DNA of 64,000 bases, taken from Rhodospirillales bacterium (GTDB lineage: Bacteria; Pseudomonadota; Alphaproteobacteria; SP197). The notes below the pieces were generated by a model. The model did no database searches. It saw only the letters and a program-made list of their open reading frames with translations, and was not told the DNA's origin. Made by a program: the position numbers and the translations under genes. Location of the stretch: assembly GCA_014323865.1 (NCBI GenBank), contig JACONG010000016.1:81685-145684 (forward strand), written 5' to 3'. Shown in pieces: positions 7,111-13,784 of the stretch (position 1 is its first letter; each line of letters begins with the position of its first letter).

Positions 7111-7960
7111 TTATCCGACGCGGGCGGCGCGCTCCAGAATCCGTTCCATGGCGCGTAACACGGGCTTTTCGATCAGCTTGCCGTCGATCACGACGAACCC
7201 CGTGCCAGCCTCCTCAAAGGCCGCGACGATAGGCCGGGCATGCGCGACCTCATCGTCGGACGGGCTGAAGACTTCATGGATCACCGGGATCTGCTTGGGG
7301 GTGGATCGATCCCTTGCCGACGAAGCTGAGGGAGCGACTGGCCTCGGCCTCCGCACGCATGCCGTCGAGGTCCTCAAGGTCAAGCCAGGGAACGTCGATG
7401 GCGTCAAGCCCGGCCGCGGCGTCCGCCACCCGGCTGCGGGCGTAAAGCAGCAGCTCCCAAGCGTTCTGAGCGCCGATATCCGACGAAAGGTCGACCGCAC
7501 CAAAGAACAGCGCCTGCACGCGATTGCTGGCCTTCGCGATCGCTGGTGCGGCCTCCAGTCCCTCGGACGGTTCGATGATGACATGAAGCGTGGTGGCGAG
7601 ACCCGCATCGTCGAGCAGGCCCGAGATCAGCGCGACCTCGTCGGCCGAGGCCACCTTGGGCAACATGAGCGAGGGCGGGCCGGCCTCGCCCGCCGCGATC
7701 ACGGCTGCGAGATCAAGCAGGCCGGGATGCGAGCGGATCGTGTTCACCTGCACCACCGTTTCGGCCGCGCCGGCGGCGGGCTTTTCCGCCATCAGTGCCA
7801 TGGTCTTCTCACGCGCTTTGTCCTTGTCCTTGGAGTGGATCGCATCCTCGAGGTCGATGCAGACAATGTCGGCGCCCGAGGCCACGGCCTTCGGGAACAT
7901 CTCAGGCTTCAGCCCCGGCATGAAGATGAAACCGCGCCTTGCCCGCGCTCGAACCGCCAT
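7111..7960 (-). pseudogene. CitE/HpcH-type CoA-ester lyase, frameshifted
   Basis: HpcH/HpaI aldolase family, CitE branch (malyl-CoA/citramalyl-CoA lyase-like, Mg-dependent C-C lyase). The first 220 residues are clean: FMPGLKPEMFPKA, DIVCIDLEDAI (metal site), VVQVNTIRSH, LMLPKVASADEV, ALFFGAVDLSSDIG and GKGSIHP. After GSIHP a run of five C shifts the frame; removing one C restores PKQIPVIHEVFSPSDDEVA and the rest of the C-terminus to the stop at 7111. The corrected protein would be about 282 residues, the normal length. The lesion is either a true one-base insertion or a homopolymer sequencing error. Confidence 0.85.
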
Positions 7961-9233: not shown

Positions 9234-10164
9234 ATGCAGTGGGACTCCAGCCTCGGCCTCCGCACCGTGGCAAAGACGCTGAGGGAGAACTACGACCTCA
9301 AGGCGCTCGACTTCACGTCTTGGACCGAAACATCGACGGCCCGCGAGCGGCGCGTGGCGCTGGTCTCCACGGGCTCGTTCTACCGAAAGGTCGACCAACC
9401 CCATCGCTTCCCGGGCTACAACTTTCGGGATATTCCGGCAGATGCCCACGACGTCCAGACTAACCATGTCTCGATCATTCTCGAACGCACCAGCTTCCTG
9501 CAGGACATCAACGTCGCGCTGCCGTTCGACTGGCTTGATGAGGCGGCCGCTGCCGTTACGATCGGGTTGGTCGCCTTGACGCACTACAACTTCAACGGCG
9601 GCAGCGCCTTGATGGGTATCGAGGGATACGAGCGCTACGCGGTCGAGGTCGCCGGCCGACTGCAGAACGGTGGCGTCAGTACGGTGCTCTTCTGCCCCCT
9701 CTGACCGGCTTGCACGTGCGCCGTGAGCGGTCTTGCGAACTATATGGAGCGCGAGGGGCTGGCGACGGCGAACGTTTCGCTGGTGCGGCTGCACTCCGAA
9801 CTGGAGCCGTCGCCGCGGGCGCTCCCGGGTGCCCTACCTTCTGGGCCGGCCCTTCGGTGCGCCAAACAATCCGGCGCTGCAGACCGACGTCATGAGCCGC
9901 CTGTTCGGCCTGCTCGACACCGCGACCGAGCAGACCCTGCTCGACACCGATGTCGAAGCTCCCGGCACACCGGCGCGCGACGCCTGGCAACCCGGCGTCA
10001 CGTTCGATCATCTGCCGGCGGATCCGGTCGATGTCGCAACGCTGCTCTATGCGTTTATGCGTTCCGCGACGAGCGTGCGGTTCTCGACATGCATCACGCA
10101 GAGGCCGTGCGGGCGCATGGCCCCTCCATGGCCGGCCCCAGCGTCCTTACTTCCGACGACCTGA
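9234..10164 (+). pseudogene. Glycine/betaine/sarcosine reductase selenoprotein B-like gene, broken
   Basis: The first frame (9234-9704) reads as the N-terminal half of the GrdB/PrdB-like family: ERRVALVSTGSFYRKVD, the FRDIPADAHDVQTNHVSI segment, and GVSTVLFCPL, ending in TGA at 9702-9704. In the same frame the protein resumes as PACTCAVSGLANYMEREGL. The TGA therefore occupies the catalytic Cys/Sec position of the CPxC(H/T) motif. Further on, one-base shifts are needed near 9820 (to reach VPYLLGRPFGAPNNPALQ) and near 10065 (to reach RDERAVLDMHHAEAVRAH). Two frameshifts make a pseudogene most likely, unless they are sequence errors. The 3' boundary is approximate. Confidence 0.7.
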
Positions 10165-10179
10165 TCACGCTGATCACCG

Positions 10180-10592
10180 ATGCGTTCGCCCACCGTCACG
10201 TCGGCGAACGCCGGGGTCATTCTGGCGGCGATCCGGGACAAGGATCACCTGAACCCGGCCCTGGTGCAGATCCCCGATTGCCCAGCGGTTCTGGTCATGC
10301 GCCGCGTCCAGCGCTTGGTGAGTGACGGTCTGGTCGAAGGTGCTGTTTGCAAGGGAAACGATCCGGAAGCCCTCTTGTTCCAATCACGGACATGACGACG
10401 GACGGTCACACGTTCCTTGCCGCGTTGGAGCAACGCAGCATCTGGGACCGGCTGACGAAAGCGCTCAGTCCAGAAGACATGGCCACCCTGTCGGTGTGCA
10501 GGATTGCCGGGCTGGCGAAGGACCTGGTGCTGGCCGCGCCCCGGAAGAAGCTGGGGCTTCAAGCTGCGCTGAATTCACCGTTCATAATCTGA
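10180..10592 (+). pseudogene. DUF2513-like small protein, frameshifted
   Basis: Two adjacent frames form one coherent small protein: an N-terminal winged-helix-like part (VLVMRRVQRLVSDGLVEG) to about 10370, then, after a one-base shift, MTTDGHTFLAALEQRSIWDRL and a helical tail ending KKLGLQAAL. The G-H-x-F-L-x-A...W pattern resembles DUF2513 proteins of phage and accessory regions. Confidence in the family is moderate; the need for the shift is clear. Confidence 0.5.
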
Positions 10593-12501: not shown

Positions 12502-12639
12502 GCGCCTCCACGTTGTCCGCCCCACACGTTGCCGGGCGGGGCTGAGTCTACTCTATATCGACCGTGCGCAACCAAACAGAAGAGGGCGCTATGAGGATTT
12601 GCCAAGAAGGCTGTGGCGGCGGAACCTGAGCTAAGATCC

Positions 12640-13784
12640 TGCGCCGGAAAAACTGAAGGAATTGCCTGAATGGCCGGCAAGGTTGTCATTTGCACGCTTG
12701 AGCTTGATGCCGATGCCACGCGGATAGCAGAGACCGTTCTTGTGATGGCCCGGCCGGTTGCGTAGCTCACATCGGTCACGACGATCGTGCTTGCATCGAC
12801 CCGTGCCGACACCTCGTGCATGAGCCGTTCCGGTCGGATGGGCGCCTGATCGGAGGGGAAGACGTCCTGGCTTCAGACGCGCCAGCGTGCACGCAAGCCG
12901 TCGAGCAGATCGGCGAGTACCTCCTTCGCATCGCCCACAAGCGCCACAGCATTGGGAAAGTTCCGACCGATCTCCATGGGATCGGTGTCGATCTGGACGA
13001 TGCGGCAGTCCGGCCGCGTCAGGGTCCAGTCGAAGGAGCAGATCTTGCCGTTGCGCGAGCCTAAGATCAGCAGCGATCAGGCCCTTGCCGTTCATGGTGG
13101 TGGCAACCGGCGCGTCGAGCCCATCCGCAACACCCGAAAGCAAGGCGCCGCCATTACCCAGGACGACCGGCCGCTGCGCCCCCAGCAGGAGCCCGACGAT
13201 CTGGGCGGTCGCGGCACGGGACGCGCGGCTGCGCATTGACGGCACATGGGTATGACGGCCGGCGATATCGCCATCGGTCCAGTCGATTTCGATCTTCAGG
13301 AGATCGGGCGTGCAGAGGACGGCGCCCGTTCCCGGACGGCCCGAGGTCGCGATACGGAAGGCGTGGCGCACGATCTCAAGGCCGCGCTCGGGCAATTCCA
13401 GACGCCCGACCCATTTCGCGAAGGGTGCGAGCACCGCGGCACGATCAATCTCACTGGCGGCATGCCGTTCCCGGTTGGCCGGGATGATGTCCTAAAAGGA
13501 AGGCGATCACGGGGATCGACGACGTCTGGGCTCGGAGCAACCCTGTGATCATGTTCGTCGCGCCCGGTCACAGGTCGCCAGGCAGAATGCAGGGCCGTCC
13601 TGTCGCCTTCGCGTAGCCGTGCGCCATGATGGCGCCGTGTTTCTCGTCATGTGCCGTGACGATGCGGACCGTGTTGCCGTCCAGGTTGTGGACGATCTCC
13701 ATGGGGTCCTCCATGCCGACGACGCAGGTGACCCCTTGCTTCCTTGAGCAGCTGCGCGCCCGCAGCGCCGACCGTCGTGCGCAT
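12640..13784 (-). pseudogene. Thiamine-diphosphate enzyme (acetolactate synthase-like), degraded
   Basis: From an ATG at 13784 with GGGGAG upstream, the frame reads MRTTVGAAGAQLLKEAGVTC..., IVTAHDEKHGAIMAHGYAKATG and GPRCI-like PYR-domain features including the catalytic-type Glu in HDEKH. Frame changes occur before PGATNMITG, again before the central domain (RPVVLGNGGALLSGVADGL, TMNGKGLI), and again before the start of the PP domain (IVVTDVSYATGRA). The GDG...N thiamine-binding motif is missing. It lies directly downstream of the Rieske operon on the same strand and may once have been its last gene. Confidence 0.75.

Follow-up and report, generated by a model that had tools for sequence, protein, structure and literature searches.

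The window analysed here, a stretch of 64,000 nucleotides from a Rhodospirillales bacterium, contains a reading frame (9234-9704, plus strand) that is terminated by TGA after ...LFCPL and then reads on in the same frame as PACTCAVSGLANYMEREGL / PACTCAVSGLANYMEREGLAT. This raises the question whether the UGA is, or was, a selenocysteine (Sec) codon, and whether the gene still works. A first-pass annotation had placed the UGA at the catalytic Cys/Sec position of a glycine-reductase-like protein, had noted that two downstream frameshifts were also needed, and had left open whether these reflect decay or sequence errors.

When the region 9234-9839 was read through the TGA and compared with NCBI models, TIGR04483 (D-proline reductase PrdB) matched with an E value of 6e-12 (45.5 bits), and the GrdB-type models matched more weakly. 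Intact relatives scored 79-111 bits against the PrdB model, and neither they nor the window copy reached its equivalog cut-off of 300. A Pfam search of the window piece gave no match, although Pfam does detect intact relatives, and no solved structure was found by sequence for an intact relative. The homology of the core domain to the PF07355/TIGR04483 superfamily is present in the window copy, and the family is nearer to PrdB than to the glycine-reductase subunit GrdB. The core that is homologous to D-proline reductase PrdB (TIGR04483) and GrdB (TIGR01917/01918) runs through and past the UxxC motif, whereas the window family differs from both in scoring far under the cut-offs of these equivalog models (300 and over 600 bits) and in carrying about 170 additional residues at the C-terminus. 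Marine selenoproteins annotated as 'proline reductase PrdB' have been reported before; the Sargasso Sea and GOS surveys (PMC1088965, PMC2398784) counted 42 and 235 such Sec sequences. They have the same UxxC motif, PF07355-type domain, and UGA with a bacterial SECIS element, and are likewise common in marine bacteria, and we take the family studied here to be this already described PF07355/TIGR04483-like group; it corresponds to the survey set by family, motif and habitat. Unlike them, the window copy is broken.

In an alignment with 24 close relatives, the UGA at 9702-9704 (plus strand) fell on their invariant Sec position (P-L-U-P-A-C, within PLU-PACT), and TGA was found there in every close family member fetched, which agrees with the catalytic position proposed initially. 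Family matches were present in 15 of the 61 related genomes searched. Counting the window copy and its own paralog, TGA occupied the Sec codon in 25 of these 26 matches, and each of the 25 contained exactly one in-frame TGA, at that same codon. The sole exception, with TGC (Cys), was a distant relative from the same bacterial family (29% identity). In named contigs of several phyla, from which the family-alignment scan kept 80 loci, TGA was present in 83/83 motif-bearing members, spanning Alpha-, Gamma- and Deltaproteobacteria, Chloroflexota, Nitrospinota, Gemmatimonadota and others; this set overlaps with that of the related genomes. Since the scan was keyed on protein patterns flanking the codon and not on TGA, the uniform TGA is not a selection effect. 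A pattern scan of the named genomes using the window protein alone gave no match, whereas the family alignment succeeded. The named contigs that share the family genes of genus mates came from MAGs of Alphaproteobacteria or Rhodospirillaceae, in many cases marine, and by inference the genome of the window would likewise belong to a marine-type alphaproteobacterium. Across the entire sampled range, the family is thus a predicted selenoprotein family. One PrdB-like member (L077 and L034; Rhodospirillaceae SI072_bin42 / G009) has an extra in-frame TGA near the N-terminus, replacing Ser (SEA-U-RAS).

The genome assembly (2.82 Mb, 18 contigs, 99.88% complete) contains all four sel genes, whose presence the first-pass annotation had proposed to check. 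SelB, selA and selD scored 427, 566 and 286 bits, above their curated cut-offs, tRNA-Sec (selC) scored 75 bits, above its gathering score, and the four lie in one 6-kb cluster (C4:227778-233421). SelD itself (G000:C4:227778-228671) is of the Cys type and has an open frame of 750 codons, suggestive of fusion to an N-terminal domain. Of the other proteins that might contain Sec in this genome, formate dehydrogenase alpha has a Cys codon, and no SelW-like Rdx is present. A gene of the UGSC family (G000:C6:27377-27874) has an in-frame TGA in U-G-S-C, with a hairpin directly 3' of it, and is otherwise intact. Judged from sequence, this genome still decodes Sec, and the idea that it has lost the Sec trait altogether was rejected in view of the UGSC gene, with its TGA in an otherwise open frame. 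Given the TGA in the relatives and the sel genes in the genome, the UGA at 9702-9704 is an ancestral Sec codon. The selenoprotein ancestry that had been suspected is thereby borne out, the near relatives all having TGA and not Cys.

The region downstream of the UGA was compared in an ungapped alignment of 74 sequences, which revealed a family SECIS element whose 5-nt loop lies 17 nt from the UGA and has an invariant G-U. Stem cells were paired in 96.6%, versus 19-57% when the partner strand was slid. Among distinct sequences, column pair 16/30 was C-G in 61 and U-A in 11, the U-A form being seen in both Alphaproteobacteria and Chloroflexota. The covariation rests on this one pair, as coding constraint leaves little freedom, and the strong conservation of the region is partly due to the protein. 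In the window, the element persists as a remnant hairpin at 9711-9737 (plus strand, 57.2 bits) with the loop CGUGA at 9722-9726, likewise separated from the UGA by 17 nt. Pair 16/30 (9717/9731) is U-U here, the only break of this pair among the 74 sequences, and under the family fold the window sequence is the least stable of all (-9.2 kcal/mol; median -14.1). The bacterial SECIS model quoted in PMC13188914 calls for an upper stem that is stable and has 4 or more pairs, with a minimum free energy (MFE) of -7.5 kcal/mol or lower; measured against this, the window hairpin has -9.2 kcal/mol, and the broken covarying pair, situated below a 3-bp upper stem, interrupts the stem. Taken alone, the window sequence does fold into the hairpin originally drawn at 9705-9730, which is the MFE structure of 9702-9750, but this hairpin is not the family SECIS. 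It folds no better than shuffled sequences (z 0.81), and was rejected as a SECIS element because only 72.8% of its cells are paired in the family, equal to shuffled sequences.

The frame of the window copy was followed with a profile of the 24 relatives. The N-terminal half, including the Sec UGA, is in frame 1 from 9234 to 9822 (plus strand, profile positions 11-194, 187.9 bits). Both frameshifts that had been postulated were found on the plus strand. The first (+1), near 9824 and within 9819-9828, is due to one extra base in GCGCTCCCGGGTG, where relatives read GCG CTC TGG GTG (CTCCCGGGTG versus CTC TGG GTG). A second stretch, shifted by one (VPYLLGRPFGAPNNPALQ...), extends from 9829 to 10062 (plus strand, profile 195-274, 36.9 bits), and the frame changes again between about 10053 and 10062, near 10060. 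Directly downstream, a third, weak stretch returns to frame 1 (10053-10187, plus strand, profile 269-313; 3.9 bits, E 0.004). Profile positions 314-402 were not matched in the window copy, so that its last ~90 residues are gone. The active-site motif and the UGA are still kept, but with two frameshifts and a missing C-terminus the reading frame is not complete.

Since frameshifts alone could be errors, constraint was tested separately. Near-invariant residues were taken as columns conserved in 95% or more of 62 non-redundant relatives; of these 48, 12 were changed in the window copy, against 5 in the next worst sequence and a median of 1. The window copy still keeps 48 of 65 conserved columns, and 10 of the 17 residues lost lie upstream of the UGA. 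Its end branch was 2.49 long (median 0.034), and on a fixed tree the ratio of branch lengths for codon positions 1+2 to position 3 was 0.74, compared to a median of 0.13 over 57 branches and a next highest value of 0.385. Together, this ratio and the lost residues are as expected of a gene that escaped selection along part of its branch; a sequencing error would not produce them. As the window copy is without a close relative, some of its divergence may be older than the loss of function; the retained active-site residues and 48 of 65 columns imply that the decay is not very old. With the residue loss, the codon-position rates, the broken SECIS pair and the lost C-terminal quarter all favouring decay over sequence error, the locus is very probably a pseudogene of a PrdB/GrdB-like selenoprotein that gives no working enzyme.

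The truncated 3' end abuts a DUF2513-like gene remnant in two frames (10174-10592, plus strand), apparently also frameshifted; DUF2513 matched 10347-10589 with E 7e-4, below the gathering score, and the 10174-10392 portion is assigned to it by inference. The surrounding 8-16 kb is poor in long frames (35% versus 62-98% elsewhere in the window). A gene similar to HpcH/HpaI aldolase/citrate lyase (7111-7960, minus strand) is split in two frames near 7290 and is a probable pseudogene as well. At 12634-13431 lies a fragment of a thiamine-pyrophosphate enzyme, consisting of the central domain, which scored below the gathering score and is apparently broken.

Could the gene nevertheless be intact, and both frameshifts be assembly or sequencing errors? 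The retained UGA, active-site motif and most of the SECIS would fit, and single frameshifts could still be errors, our calls being based on the assembled sequence. However, the C-terminal ~90 residues are missing outright and not merely shifted, invariant residues are lost, and positions 1+2 evolve almost as fast as position 3 on the window branch only. In addition, the assembly is nearly complete in few contigs, and the scarcity of coding sequence is local, long reading frames being normal in other genome stretches outside 8-16 kb. We therefore regard wholesale error as highly improbable. Even less probable is that the UGA now serves simply as a stop codon and that the N-terminal part of 156 residues took on some role as a shortened protein; the frame 9234-9704 is indeed open and has an ATG start, but constraint was lost there too, as the residues lost before the UGA illustrate. 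That the protein was of the Cys type and never a selenoprotein, its UGA being a chance Cys-to-UGA nonsense mutation, is hardly credible: the TGC of the distant relative would agree with it, but all closer members, the genome's own paralog included, have TGA and a conserved SECIS, and the window SECIS itself still scores 57 bits.

This paralog (L023, G000:C4, about 226390-227600) lies next to selD. It resembles the window copy in family, TGA and SECIS, the latter with the best score of all (64.7 bits), but differs in still being constrained (ratio 0.089). In several genus and family mates, the gene adjoins the sel cluster (selD-selC-selB-selA). In the C-terminal part of the paralog, TAG replaces a Trp that is conserved in relatives (L023:2278-2280), and past this TAG the frame runs to the natural end of the family. 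This could mean that the paralog has only just died, or that the TAG is erroneous. It is conceivable, though somewhat doubtful, that the lineage, with the window copy frameshifted and truncated and the last copy newly amber, is losing the whole PrdB-like family while keeping the Sec machinery for UGSC and other clients.

Under the pseudogene reading, the ancestor would have used SelB together with the 9711-9737 hairpin to read the UGA at 9702-9704 as Sec, as predicted for the relatives. Intact relatives presumably insert Sec, and by analogy with PrdB/GrdB their U-x-x-C pair would form a redox or nucleophilic centre. Even if SelB still decodes the UGA in the window copy, the frame would be left at about 9824 and no working enzyme would result. 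For the marine PrdB-like family, the locus yields a SECIS alignment that is well conserved and includes, in the window copy, a natural broken variant. It is also a clean example of selenoprotein gene death, in which the reading frame is outlasted by the UGA and the greater part of the SECIS, so that a scan for a UGA plus hairpin would miscount this copy as a working selenoprotein.
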